Source of the DNA: Bacteroidales bacterium
GTDB lineage: Bacteria > Bacteroidota > Bacteroidia > Bacteroidales > UBA12481
Assembly: GCA_021160155.1 (NCBI GenBank)
Contig: JAGHDB010000222.1
Coordinates: forward strand, 1-19,980
DNA: 19,980 nucleotides
Direction: 5' to 3'
Part shown: in pieces, positions 2,980 through 6,475 of the stretch
Position numbering within the stretch: position 1 is the stretch's first letter
Layout of the letters: each line of letters begins with the position of its first letter
Made by a program: the position numbers and the translations under genes
The notes under the pieces: model-generated
Database searches by the model: none
What the model saw: the letters and a program-made list of their open reading frames with translations, nothing else
What the model was told of the DNA's origin: nothing

Positions 2980-4208
2980 AATTTTCTCTTTTCATCGCCC
3001 GTCGATATCTGTTTTCAAAAAGATCAACCCATATAGCCAACCGTATCTCTCACATCACACTGGCAGGTATCGGTCTTTCTACCATGGCACTGGTGATCGT
3101 ACTTTCGGTTTTTAACGGACTGGATCACCTGATTAAATCATTGTTCAGCTCCTTTGACCCGGACATTAAAATTGAAGCAAACCAGGGAAAAACTTTTTCT
3201 TTATCAGATGATTCCCTGCAACAGATTTTAAAAATTGAAGGAATCCAATCGGTGTGTGGCACCATTGAAGGTGAAGCATTACTCCGTTACCGCGACCGCC
3301 AGACGGTGGCTACGGTGAAAGGAATTTGTTCTGATTTTGCCCGTGTATCGGGTATTGACAGTATGCTGACCGATGGCGGGTTTACATTATCCGAAGGAGA
3401 TTTACCCGGCGGAATCATTGGTCAGGATCTGGCATGGCAACTGGGCGTGGGACTTAATTTCATTAATCCGCTGCATCTTTATGTCCCTAAACGAAACAGT
3501 AGCTTTTTCTCTGATCCGGCCACAGCTTTCAGCCATCGTTATTTGTTCCCGACCGGTATCTTTTCAATTCAGGCAGATTATGATGCCACTTATCTTCTGG
3601 TGCCGGTTGATTTTGCAAAAACATTGTTCGGTTTTCATTCCGGTGAATATTCCGCCCTTGAAATTTTTCTCCGGAAAAACCAAAAAACCGCTCCGGTAAC
3701 CCATACACTTGAAAATTATCTCGGCTATCGTTACCAGGTACTTGACTCCTACAGGCAACATGCCTATTTTTACAAAGTAATGGCCGGAGAAAAATGGATC
3801 ATCCTGCTGATTCTCTCTTTCATCCTGATCATTGCCTCTTTTAATTCGATCTCTTCACTCTCCCTGCTGCTGCTTGAAAAAAAACAGGATATAGCTATTC
3901 TGCAAAGTATGGGAGCCCGCATCAGTGAAGTCCGCCGCATATTTGTACTTCAAAATTTATTCATTTCATTAATCGGATTGGCCGGCGGATTGGTATTGGG
4001 AATTTTTTTCTGCTGGATGCAGCAACATTACGGCATTATCAGATTTCCCCAGGAGGGATCCTTTCTGGTCAGCGCCTACCCGGTCAGAATAGTATTTCGT
4101 GATTTACTGTTGATATCCGGACTGGTTGGGATGGTGGGAGTAGTAACCGGATGGGTTCCGGTGACAGTGATTAAAAAACATTATTTTTCGCCGGTTTCTG
4201 AAGCATAA
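2976..4208 (+). CDS. FtsX/LolC-E family ABC transporter permease
   Basis: Inner-membrane permease subunit of an ABC system of the MacB/FtsX/LolCE group, 410 residues. Topology read from the protein: TM1 about 27-48, a large periplasmic MacB_PCD-like domain 50-270, then TM2 274-299, TM3 326-347 and TM4 376-397. The stretch EKKQDIAILQSMGA (301-314) is the cytoplasmic signature of LolC/LolE-type permeases, which extract lipoproteins from the inner membrane. It is coupled to rbfA by the ATGA overlap. No ATPase (LolD) or second permease is nearby, so the partner would be encoded elsewhere. A lipoprotein-release role is likely but not proven; a FtsX- or MacB-like role is the alternative. The 3' end overlaps convergent dusB by 28 bases. 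Confidence 0.88.
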   Translation: MKFSLFIARRYLFSKRSTHIANRISHITLAGIGLSTMALVIVLSVFNGLDHLIKSLFSSFDPDIKIEANQGKTFSLSDDSLQQILKIEGIQSVCGTIEGEALLRYRDRQTVATVKGICSDFARVSGIDSMLTDGGFTLSEGDLPGGIIGQDLAWQLGVGLNFINPLHLYVPKRNSSFFSDPATAFSHRYLFPTGIFSIQADYDATYLLVPVDFAKTLFGFHSGEYSALEIFLRKNQKTAPVTHTLENYLGYRYQVLDSYRQHAYFYKVMAGEKWIILLILSFILIIASFNSISSLSLLLLEKKQDIAILQSMGARISEVRRIFVLQNLFISLIGLAGGLVLGIFFCWMQQHYGIIRFPQEGSFLVSAYPVRIVFRDLLLISGLVGMVGVVTGWVPVTVIKKHYFSPVSEA

Positions 4209-5191
4209 GCAGGCTGATCTCCCCATTTCCGTATAATCTCACTCAGAATGATATTAATATCCTCCGGGGTGGTGGCCTGTAATAACCTGATCCGGGACTC
4301 CCTGAACCCGTATAAACCCTTAAAAGAGGTGGCAAAAAAACGACGCATGGATAAAATCGCACGGTATTCGTCCCTGATTGCCAGTACACGTTGAAAATGA
4401 TCACGTAGTAGTTTAACCTGTTCCGTCACGGTCACCGGCGGAAGTAATTCCCCGGTATCCAGATAGTAGCGTATCTCTCTGAAAATCCAGGGTCTGCCGA
4501 TAGCCGCCCTGCCAATCATAATTGCATCTACACCATACTGTTCAAAACACCATTTGGCTTTCTCAGGAGAATCCACATCCCCGTTACCAATTACCGGAAT
4601 ATGCATGCGAGGATTGTTTTTTACCTCCCCGATAAGTTCCCAGTCGGCCTCTCCCTGATACATCTGCGTGCGGGTTCGTCCGTGAATGGTAATCGCCCTG
4701 ATCCCGGTATCCTGTAACTGTTCGGCCACATCTTTAATATTGATACTCTGCTGATCCCATCCCAACCTGGTTTTTACCGTTACGGGGAGGCGGGTAGCTT
4801 TCACAATCTCACGGGTTATTTTGATCATCAGGGGCACATCTTTCAACATACCCGCTCCGGCCCCTTTCATGGCTACCTTTTTTGCCGGACAGCCAAAGTT
4901 GAGATCAATCAGATCAGGGTTAAATGTTTCGGCAATCCTGACTGATTCAATCATGGAAGCGATCCTGTTGCCATAAAGCTGAATGGCATAAGGATGTTCT
5001 GCTTCATCAATGTACATTTTTCTGACTGTTTTATTCACCCCACGAATCAGTGCCTCTGATGAAACAAATTCACTGTACAGAAGATCCGCTCCGAATTTTT
5101 TACAGAAATATCTGAAAGTGGCATCTGTGACATCCTCCATGGGTGCCAGAAAAAGAGGGTATTCTCCGAATTGCAATTCACCTATTTCCAT
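4181..5191 (-). CDS. dusB: tRNA-dihydrouridine synthase (DusB-like)
   Basis: FMN/NADPH enzyme that reduces uridine to dihydrouridine in the tRNA D-loop. A TIM-barrel Dus domain fills about residues 10-245, followed by the helical RNA-binding domain. In the 336-residue form the key pieces are FLAPMEDVTD (14-23), LNFGCPAKKV with the catalytic Cys101, HGRTRTQMYQG (170-180), GNGD (202-205) and IGRAAIGRPW (226-235). I start at the ATG 5189-5191 (MEIGELQFG). A TTG three codons upstream is possible but unneeded. DusB is the best fit; DusA is less likely. It converges with the permease gene and diverges from the beta-rich protein gene. Confidence 0.92.
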   Translation of the reverse strand: MEIGELQFGEYPLFLAPMEDVTDATFRYFCKKFGADLLYSEFVSSEALIRGVNKTVRKMYIDEAEHPYAIQLYGNRIASMIESVRIAETFNPDLIDLNFGCPAKKVAMKGAGAGMLKDVPLMIKITREIVKATRLPVTVKTRLGWDQQSINIKDVAEQLQDTGIRAITIHGRTRTQMYQGEADWELIGEVKNNPRMHIPVIGNGDVDSPEKAKWCFEQYGVDAIMIGRAAIGRPWIFREIRYYLDTGELLPPVTVTEQVKLLRDHFQRVLAIRDEYRAILSMRRFFATSFKGLYGFRESRIRLLQATTPEDINIILSEIIRKWGDQPAYASETGEK

Positions 5192-5197
5192 TACGAG

Positions 5198-5205
5198 CAA
5201 AATTA
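5198..5205 (-). promoter_or_regulatory. Weak candidate -7 element for dusB
   Basis: Minus-strand TAATTTTG fits TAnnTTTG but lies only six bases before the chosen dusB ATG, which would give an almost leaderless mRNA. No -33 element was found. Confidence 0.25.
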
Positions 5206-5226: not shown

Positions 5227-5269
5227 GAATTTTTGTATTTTCACTGGTTTATAAGGGAAACAGAGCACT

Positions 5270-6475
5270 TTGACTCGTAAAAAATCCATACATCGTTCTT
5301 CAATCTTTAGTCTTTGGCCTATAGCCTTTAGCCTTAAGTCTTTGGCCTTTAGTCTTTGGCCTTTAGCCTTAAGTTTCACCTGCTCTGCCCAGGATACCCT
5401 TCCGGCCACGCTGCAATGGCCTGAATACCGTACGTTTACCGATCCGGTAGTGACCGATTCTGCCGAACCGATGTCATTGTATTTGCGAATGCACAGTACC
5501 AGCTATTTTAAAAATAATGAGTATAAAAACGACTTTCTGACCGGTTATACACTGGTGGGAATGTATTTTGAACCGGTGTTGGAATTTAATCCGGATGCAA
5601 AAACCTCCATCTATGCCGGAGTGCATCTGTTGAAATATTTCGGCCGTGACCGGTTTGAACGAAAATTACCGGTGATCAGCCTGAGATACACGCCTAACCG
5701 TAATTTTTCCATGATCTTCGGCACATTATACGGCACCACTTCACACGGATTACCTGAGCCCATGTATGACTTTGAACAATATCTTACCAATAATTATGAA
5801 AACGGTATCCAGCTTCTATGGAATTATCCCTCTTTCAGAGGAGATGTGTGGCTTAACTGGGAACAGTTTATCCGTAAGGGGGATCCTCTTCAGGAAAAAT
5901 TCACCGTAGGAGCCAACACAGAATTTCAACTGGTACATGGTAAAAAGCTGAATCTGTCGGTTCCTTTTGCCGTTCTTTTCCGCCATTGCGGGGGGGAAAT
6001 TGATGCCACGAACCTACCGGCCGAAACCCAGAGTAATTTATTAATGGGTTTCAGAGCAGGATGGGATTTTGGTACACGGTGGGTTAAATCTGTTTGGTTC
6101 GATCAGGAGTGGATTGAATTTCTTGAAATTAATCCGGGCGACCACATAACGGTCACGAATGGCAGAGGCCGGTATACGCGGAGTGGTATGGAAACCCGGA
6201 TCGGGAGTTTTGAATTAGGATACTGGAATGCCGATGATTTTATTTCACCGCATGGTATGCCATTGTTCCAGTCGGTCAGTCAGAAGTATCCGGATTTTTT
6301 TCTTTCAAAACGCGAAATGCTGATACTGAAATATGAATTTCACCAGTCACTGACTCCCTTTCTGGATTTTGCTCTGCGGATTGAACCATATTACCATTTT
6401 TACACCGGAAGAATGGACCACAGCTGGAGTTTATATCTTAAATTCAATGACCGGTTTTTTTTGGGGAAATTATAA
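5270..6475 (+). CDS. Predicted exported beta-rich (outer-membrane barrel-like) protein
   Basis: I do not recognise a named family. The 401-residue product has a basic N-terminus (TRKKSIHR), a hydrophobic segment about 12-36 and a likely signal-peptidase site at CSA/QD (40/41). From about 65 onward it alternates polar and hydrophobic/aromatic residues with many Tyr, Phe and Trp, as in beta-barrels. Its last strand is YLKFNDRFFLGKL. An outer-membrane or surface location is inferred. The only start that retains the signal is TTG at 5270, since an in-frame stop lies at 5252-5254; the first in-frame ATG (5471) would remove it. The hydrophobic core is encoded by a heptanucleotide tandem repeat, giving three rough copies of SLWPLAF. 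The 3' end overlaps the convergent glycosylase gene by 32 bases. Confident as a gene, not in its function. Confidence 0.75.
   Translation: MTRKKSIHRSSIFSLWPIAFSLKSLAFSLWPLALSFTCSAQDTLPATLQWPEYRTFTDPVVTDSAEPMSLYLRMHSTSYFKNNEYKNDFLTGYTLVGMYFEPVLEFNPDAKTSIYAGVHLLKYFGRDRFERKLPVISLRYTPNRNFSMIFGTLYGTTSHGLPEPMYDFEQYLTNNYENGIQLLWNYPSFRGDVWLNWEQFIRKGDPLQEKFTVGANTEFQLVHGKKLNLSVPFAVLFRHCGGEIDATNLPAETQSNLLMGFRAGWDFGTRWVKSVWFDQEWIEFLEINPGDHITVTNGRGRYTRSGMETRIGSFELGYWNADDFISPHGMPLFQSVSQKYPDFFLSKREMLILKYEFHQSLTPFLDFALRIEPYYHFYTGRMDHSWSLYLKFNDRFFLGKL
5305..5374 (+). repeat. Ten-unit heptanucleotide tandem repeat
   Basis: Ten head-to-tail 7-base units with consensus CTTTAGC. Variants are CTTTAGT (units 1, 7), CTTTGGC (2, 6, 8), CTATAGC (3), CTTTAGC (4, 9) and CTTAAGT (5, 10). 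CTTCAAT at 5298-5304 may be a decayed eleventh unit. Units 4-5 and 9-10 are identical 35 bases apart. Three units make 21 bases, so the translation repeats every seven residues. The array encodes the signal-peptide core of the gene starting at 5270. The opposite strand is also open and reads as KAKGQRL-like repeats. Confidence 0.95.

Follow-up and report, generated by a model that had tools for sequence, protein, structure and literature searches.

Heptanucleotide repeats as the probable source of an apparent signal peptide core in a predicted outer-membrane protein of Bacteroidales

We analysed a stretch of 19,980 nucleotides (the window; contig C349) from a Bacteroidales genome of 2.38 Mb in 411 contigs, 82% complete. 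A gene for a predicted outer-membrane beta-barrel in it begins with an apparent signal peptide whose hydrophobic core is written in degenerate seven-base repeats. It is probable that this core was swapped in place by a slippage-born heptamer array, with the reading frame kept by selection. The features concerned are:

4181..5200, minus strand: dusB (tRNA-dihydrouridine synthase), divergent neighbour, Pfam PF01207, E 7e-83
5230..5250, plus strand: promoter-like element TTTTTGTATTTTCACTGGTTT, aligned with L111 and L112, both of which read TGTACTTTCACCTGTTT
5270-6475, plus strand: open reading frame with TTG start, 401 amino acids, open across the array
5270..5304, plus strand: TTG start and positively charged n-region MTRKKSIHRSSI, residues 1 to about 12
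5305..5374, plus strand: heptamer array, ten units, consensus CTTTRGY, with a weaker eleventh unit at 5298-5304
5375..5392, plus strand: apparent c-region and cleavage site, residues 36-41 FTCSAQ, cut before or after Q41
5393..6472, plus strand: mature part, predicted outer-membrane beta-barrel, distant LpxZ-family relative

We found the array at 5305-5370/5374 with TRF, at periods of 7, 14 and 21, and a CTTTRGY matcher placed it at 5298-5374 (11 units, 5 mismatches). Identity at lag 7 was 47/63, against a maximum of 33 and a mean of 29.0 in 200 dinucleotide shuffles of the window, and no other stretch of the window is as strong at lag 7. The frame opens 5 codons ahead of the TTG at 5270 and continues through the repeats, which bears out the preliminary description of ten heptamers within a coding region. 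When the protein was held fixed and its codons were redrawn synonymously 2000 times (codon usage from the relative G001), lag-7 DNA matches were 22/28 in the array against a mean of 14.6 (p = 0.001), so the array DNA is periodic beyond what the encoded protein demands. Hydrophobic cores are of low complexity and lags of 6, 9 and 12 also occur in signal-peptide-like starts, and a leucine- and serine-rich signal peptide might thus have become periodic by chance. We consider this very improbable, given the redraws and the fact that the unit is the dispersed heptamer of this genome.

The array encodes the hydrophobic core (residues 12-35) as the heptapeptides SLWPIAF (14-20), SLKSLAF (21-27) and SLWPLAL (28-34). 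The whole apparent signal peptide reads MTRKKSIHRSSIF-SLWPIAF-SLKSLAF-SLWPLAL-SFTCSAQ/D, where the slash marks the cut. Judged by inspection and a Kyte-Doolittle scan only, it has the layout of a Sec signal peptide, with a positive n-region, a core of at least 10 residues and small residues before the cut. The best 11-residue Kyte-Doolittle mean was 1.81 for the window protein and 1.59 for a homologue from a second strain (P0001), while homologues with a clear signal peptide mostly gave 2.2-3.6. This lower hydrophobicity, together with the W, P and lysine 24 found within the core, weakens the signal peptide reading. We infer that the array-encoded peptide would act as an export signal and be cleaved; the element at 5230..5250 may similarly serve as a promoter.

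The nature of the protein supports a need for export. An AlphaFold2 model built from a 17-sequence alignment (the window protein and 16 of 120 listed homologues) had a mean pLDDT of 76 and a pTM of 0.73, with strands between residue 69 and the C-terminus and, within residues 1-46, where pLDDT was <50, a helix at 15-28. Foldseek returned a list headed by porins (best E 1.1e-9, TM 0.47 on the query and 0.56 on the target), and the modelled fold thus appears like that of solved porins. A barrel-type outer-membrane protein needs a signal peptide, and the N-terminal sequence looks like one. A Pfam search gave no family for the 401-aa protein. At profile level it is related to NCBIfam NF052651 (LpxZ) with an E of 8e-65, but its 219 bits lie far under the curated cut-off of 460 bits, and membership of this lipid A deacylase family was rejected. 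It therefore appears to be a distant relative of LpxZ, for which we make no functional claim; in the available text of PMC11784228, LpxZ is a lipid A deacylase of Porphyromonas gingivalis. A dusB-like start was seen by eye upstream of the homologues at L021 and L023, and less clearly at L024 and L025.

TTG is a weak start codon, and the next in-frame starts are TTG 5342, GTG 5450 and ATG 5471. If the protein started at one of these, the array would be a 5' untranslated repeat. We regard this as improbable, because a start at 5450 or 5471 would drop the conserved WPEY (residues 50-53) and any export signal of the barrel protein, and a start at 5342 would still lie within the array and would lack positive charge. 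Moreover, two strains have an uninterrupted frame across the array, and both non-ATG and MTR starts recur in homologues: 6/36 fetched homologous proteins begin with V, non-ATG starts are also found at relatives' loci, and MTR-like starts were seen in P0008, P0010, P0012, P0016, P0019, P0020 and P0023.

Homologues were used to trace the core. A protein database search gave 214 of them at E <= 1e-40, of which the best 120 were examined; among named records, the nearest that contain a homologue are Bacteroidota MAGs. Among the 120 matches listed, several of which are N-terminally truncated, only P0001 carried an SLWP/FSLW/LAFSL signature in its first 60 residues. P0001 is 98% identical to the window protein, lies on a JGI contig of 40.9 kb and has the same start codon, with the array in frame. 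It differs by substitutions at residues 8, 18 and 21 and by six more at 51-398, and its unit count is unchanged (one other strain compared). Since this separate contig keeps the array in frame, the array of the window is not an assembly artefact. At the DNA level, the homologous locus was found in 22/60 genomes searched, the window's genome included, and the array core was absent from all the starts read, those of 20 of the 21 relatives' loci (L034 left out).

The flanks of the core are nevertheless shared. P0008 and P0010 begin MTRPLLIILLLASGALSSWAQDSTWF, with a window-like MTR start and AQD region and an ordinary core in between; by eye, the cleavage region is TCSAQDTLPA in the window protein and SSWAQDSTWF in these two. 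The upstream element TGTACTTTCACCTGTTT is also common to the window gene and its two nearest named relatives. As the MTR start, the AQD region and the upstream element are all common to relatives, replacement of the core in place is the most likely event, as far as these sequences allow one to judge. The earlier claim that the signal peptide core was born of a simple DNA repeat therefore gains support from the differing cores of homologues, the scatter of the heptamer in the genome and the in-frame second strain. Homologues do not share a well-conserved unrelated signal peptide with an ATG start in another frame; their signal peptides vary. The preliminary description also mentioned SLWPLAF-like peptides in Bacteroidota predictions, and such peptides turned out not to be common at this protein size. 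A search with residues 1-48, limited to proteins 0.55 to 1.75 times the query length, found only the copy of the other strain (1/7 candidates).

Some homologues have repeats elsewhere. In L021 and P0013, other heptamer-like repeats follow an ordinary signal peptide (TTDDGRRMTDD with ACGACGG units in one, QTADRGLQTADTATRGRLQ, protein only, in the other), and the junction of signal peptide and mature part in these two seems prone to arrays. P0026 and P0028 end in GSRLKAQGSR-type repeats (proteins only), as if a 3' heptamer array had been read through.

We computed that a 7-base unit read in triplets gives an identical cyclic heptapeptide in all three frames. CTTTGGC yields LWPLAFG and CTTTGGT yields LWSLVFG, with AKGQRPK and TKDQRPK from the complements, so that the peptide of the CTTTRGY strand is hydrophobic and that of the opposite strand charged. 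Because every frame gives this peptide and the SLWPLAF/SLVFGLW type is hydrophobic, the array could serve as a signal peptide core. A consensus CTTTAGC array would meet a TAG codon every 21 bases. Of the ten units in the window, 5 contain TAG; the TNG triplet falls in frame in units 2, 5 and 8, which read TGG, AAG and TGG, none with the consensus TAG. Having 0/3 in-frame TAG is expected by chance with a probability of 0.08, and avoidance of in-frame TAG in this array is only suggestive.

Changing the array in silico by -2, -1, +1 or +2 units led to a stop at residues 37-58; the frame survived a change of plus or minus 3 units. Gain or loss of one heptamer would thus shift the frame and turn the outer-membrane protein off, as CTCTT does in Neisseria opa, and the array could be a contingency locus. 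Surface proteins are the usual targets of phase variation, and a gene with four exact CTTTGGT units in tandem (L051) is known from a relative. The array also resembles the opa type in being a tandem repeat within the 5' coding region whose unit is not divisible by 3. The one-unit switch-off is, however, a matter of arithmetic only, and the array has no long perfect tract that would slip readily: at lag 7 its exact runs reach 7 nt at most and at lag 14 they reach 16 nt, and so degenerate an array should slip rarely. The one other strain compared (P0001) differs by substitutions only, with an equal unit number, and arrays also occur in the housekeeping genes glpK, mnmE, gltX and an isoleucyl-type tRNA synthetase. 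We therefore think phase variation unlikely and prefer a core replaced by an array whose frame is kept.

Searching this genome with the pattern CTTTAGYCTTTRGYCTTTRGY (2 mismatches) gave 25 matches on 11 contigs, the window included, and none for the reversed control. The window array is the longest of its genome, with 11 units against 3-6 elsewhere. Ten other CTTTRGY arrays were found, 4 intergenic, 5 over a gene's end and 1 inside glpK. This answers the earlier suggestion to look for further arrays: they are mostly intergenic or at gene ends here, and other overlaps with signal peptides lie in related genomes. At L011, L012, L013, L015 and L017 of the window's genome, arrays over the stop codon have GCTAAAG-like coding-strand units that give TAA in every frame.

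With 9/10 of these arrays intergenic or over gene ends, the repeat might be a DNA- or RNA-level element (in protein binding, CUUUAGC-GCUAAAG antisense pairing or translational control), its coding content being incidental. A translational role was proposed for TAACTGA repeats of Beggiatoaceae in the available part of PMC4679880, and quadruplexes for GGGAATC repeats in that of PMC4692102. Against this, the units vary between and within genomes, housekeeping genes contain copies, and the copies within genes sort by peptide hydropathy (see below), pointing to selection on the peptide. We judge this account unlikely too, slightly more so than phase variation, and retain selection on the encoded core.

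Across the order, a five-unit CTTTRGY array was found in 15/393 genomes and the reversed control in 18/393, so there is no proof, beyond this genome, that CTTTRGY is special. The reversed control is evidently another heptamer in use in other genomes. It gave 22 to 68 matches in G053, G056, G211 and G380, and other heptamer units are spread in other lineages. The following array counts rest on pattern searches and sampled stretches. In 40 unselected contigs of the window's genome (three unreadable), lag 7 gave 2 arrays and lags 6, 8 and 12 gave 3 each; lag 7 is thus not above other lags and the heptamer load is modest. In 150 kb of unselected sequence from G001, of the same family, we counted 5 lag-7 arrays against 0-3 at lags other than 7 and its multiples. 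In contigs partly picked for matches, such arrays are common in G001, where 767 kb held 29, of many different units, against 0-6, and 324 kb of G302 (another family) held 15 against 0-4. Long AATCGGG/CCCGATT arrays, a rotation of the published Xanthomonas/Nostoc GGGAATC, lie at L235:16031-16121 and L227:10667-10725.

We then compared arrays inside genes, counting 15 in G000, G001 and G004 in Pfam-supported genes (for the window gene, the NCBIfam match and homologues served). Hydrophobic readings were found in 4/15, all of them in signal peptides: the window gene, L051 (T9SS sorting domain) and the GH29 fucosidases at L150 and L233, the former with a signal peptide ending in a lipobox-like LSGC. 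The other 11/15 had hydrophilic readings and none was in a signal peptide: GlpK, a sulfatase, a DUF5107-TPR protein, an E2 acyltransferase linker, MnmE, GltX, CoaBC, a PQQ-type protein, an iron-sulphur oxidoreductase, the class I tRNA synthetase of L080 and a histidine kinase. For this set, which is small, from one family, partly found through the pattern itself and classed by hand, Fisher's test of hydropathy against signal peptides gave p = 0.0007 (0.0014 before the L080 synthetase and the histidine kinase were added). Signal peptides are hydrophobic by nature, so the sorting shows that arrays are tolerated by the kind of peptide they encode and not that signal peptides have a special mechanism. 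In-gene arrays sort by hydropathy, not strand: a rule that the pyrimidine-rich strand makes signal peptides was dropped, as the non-exported L080 synthetase and L150 histidine kinase have a pyrimidine-rich coding strand and hydrophilic peptides.

The count leaves out arrays that precede a likely later Met and signal peptide (L150, 605 aa; L228, 1191 aa) or the start itself (L201, 568 aa); frames with no Pfam family opposite a Pfam-supported gene (L150, 135 aa; L186/L212, 165 aa); the frames at L199 (105 aa), L201 (110 aa), L228 (103 aa) and L179 (127 aa); arrays over stop codons; and cases from other families (L046, 206 aa; L056, 135 aa; the L241 ORFs; L244, 488 aa; L254, 399 aa, with ATTTTTT units). 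The L080 array, at 4864-4902 in the window's genome, has GTGTGCA-like units in the 954-aa ORF of the class I synthetase and reads SHRTPHTAHCTLH; the same contig has a GATATTG-like array at 1590-1652. In relatives, array peptides of the KDQRPKT and GNRESGI types lie in hydrophilic stretches of proteins, cytoplasmic ones among them, at L171 (MnmE), L177 (GltX), L201 (CoaBC) and L212 (E2), and likewise at L222 (two genes), L150 (sulfatase and histidine kinase) and L192.

Searches directed at signal peptides, outside the 15-gene count, gave further candidates: L265 (PQQ-type, MFLSLKSSIFCLILVLGLGSSVLGQ) and two PQQ-type signal peptides in L223 with a different unit. A 31-residue signal peptide query over 60 genomes had 17 matches and one new gene (L265), most of the others being short or interrupted frames. 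The seven candidate signal peptides belong to four unrelated families, and 6/7 exceeded 2000 synonymous redraws (p 0.0005-0.0015); the second L223 signal peptide did not (p = 0.13). The proteins of L265 (G004) and the first L223 gene (G001) are 79% identical, and their signal peptides are written in GTCTTGG-like and in GCCTTTT/GCCCTCT-like units, respectively. The view that a repeat is an unusual origin for a targeting signal thus needs qualifying: derivation of the core from a repeat is supported, but it is less singular, with five more clear candidates in related genomes and a precedent in opa, according to the accessible part of PMC3960869.

Length differences in two of these families are multiples of the repeat. 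L051 has its four exact CTTTGGT units in a row, and its protein (P0121) differs from P0122/P0123 by one 7-residue gap within the signal peptide core. By eye and on peptides only, nine near homologues (P0122, P0123, P0126, P0127, P0129, P0130, P0132-P0134) have a core related to that of L051, which is absent from P0124, P0125, P0128 and others. The glpK of the window's genome has five antisense-strand heptamers (L016:2609-2643) that give a 7-residue-longer stretch, LQGQRLKDKGQKLKDRGQSL: KIKW...D(S/T)W spans 36 residues here against 29 in 11/11 relatives with the motif (6 further loci were unmatched), and the stretch is also 7 residues longer than in the E. coli GlpK structure. The 7-residue steps in GlpK and the L051-type signal peptide correspond to three heptamers each. 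For MnmE, GltX and CoaBC the length difference from the best solved relative is another one, and 7-residue steps are therefore not a feature shown for all.

Lag-7 enrichment among signal-peptide-like starts is small. At a threshold of 18/28, lag-7 periodicity was found in 6/323 of these starts in G001, two of them T-rich and doubtful (L148 'MIFFRV...' and L162), against 0-3 when the lag was divisible by neither 3 nor 7, and in 2/293 starts that are not signal-peptide-like. The corresponding figure in G302 was 2/79, against 0-1 at such lags, and in contigs of the window's genome other than the window's it was 0/75. Repeat-built signal peptides are rare, one or two per hundred at most.

These results suggest a route by which the window gene could have acquired its core. 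In this Bacteroidales family, CTTTRGY would belong to a class of 7-base arrays that are dispersed and slip easily. An array would have arisen in, or been copied into, the signal-peptide-coding start of the barrel gene and displaced the hydrophobic core, with the charged start and cleavage region retained. Units with TAG may then have been shunned where they fall in frame, and length changes borne in steps of three units (7 aa). Both the slippage origin and the selection on the array are our interpretation; that heptamer abundance may reflect polymerase slippage is a suggestion passed on in the available text of PMC4692102. It is a real possibility, though short of a probable one, that heptamer arrays serve these Bacteroidota as a constant supply of new protein segments and that signal peptides are repeatedly born or rewritten from them, even with different units in orthologues. 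As one cyclic heptapeptide is given in every frame, an array in a gene would always supply one kind of peptide, hydrophobic for an export signal or hydrophilic for a linker or loop.

The origin of a signal peptide, a fast-evolving element, can seldom be traced, but here the raw material is still legible. Like material is found in exported proteins that are unrelated to one another, and this suggests that protein-targeting signals can be made by reusing simple repeats. Because 7 is not divisible by 3, such an array may provide an export-ready peptide whatever the frame. This opens the birth of a targeting signal to testing and may be one reason why 7-base arrays are tolerable in genes.

The in-gene arrays recall the Rickettsia palindromic elements, a repeat family whose members enter genes, among them housekeeping genes, without breaking the frame. 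Those elements are palindromic and over 100 bases long, not heptamer arrays, and to our knowledge none acts as a signal peptide. Heptameric simple sequence repeats also include the cyanobacterial STRR. In the available text of PMC3960869, Neisseria opa genes have a short tandem repeat, CTCTT, whose unit is likewise not a multiple of three, in the leader-peptide region of an outer-membrane protein. Unit number varies in opa, and phase variation (about 1e-3) results, whereas the window array has a 7-base unit, is degenerate, showed no variation in number (one strain compared) and belongs to a dispersed repeat, with several unrelated genes involved. As far as the accessible parts of PMC4679880 and PMC4692102 go, TAACTGA heptamers occur in Beggiatoaceae, Cyanobacteria and a few Bacteroidetes, and GGGAATC heptamers in Xanthomonas/Nostoc; G001 itself carries AATCGGG arrays, a rotation of the latter. 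Leader-peptide repeats (PMC3960869) and dispersed heptamers (PMC4692102, PMC4679880) are thus known separately; within the titles and abstract openings of the open-access literature, we found no report of heptamer repeats as signal peptides and none joining the two. The published heptamers share with CTTTRGY the period of seven, the dispersal and the mostly intergenic location, but in the accessible text of PMC4679880 and PMC4692102 they are mainly intergenic and under-represented in coding sequence, with one two-unit set in purC, while the in-gene copies described here become signal peptide cores or loop insertions.
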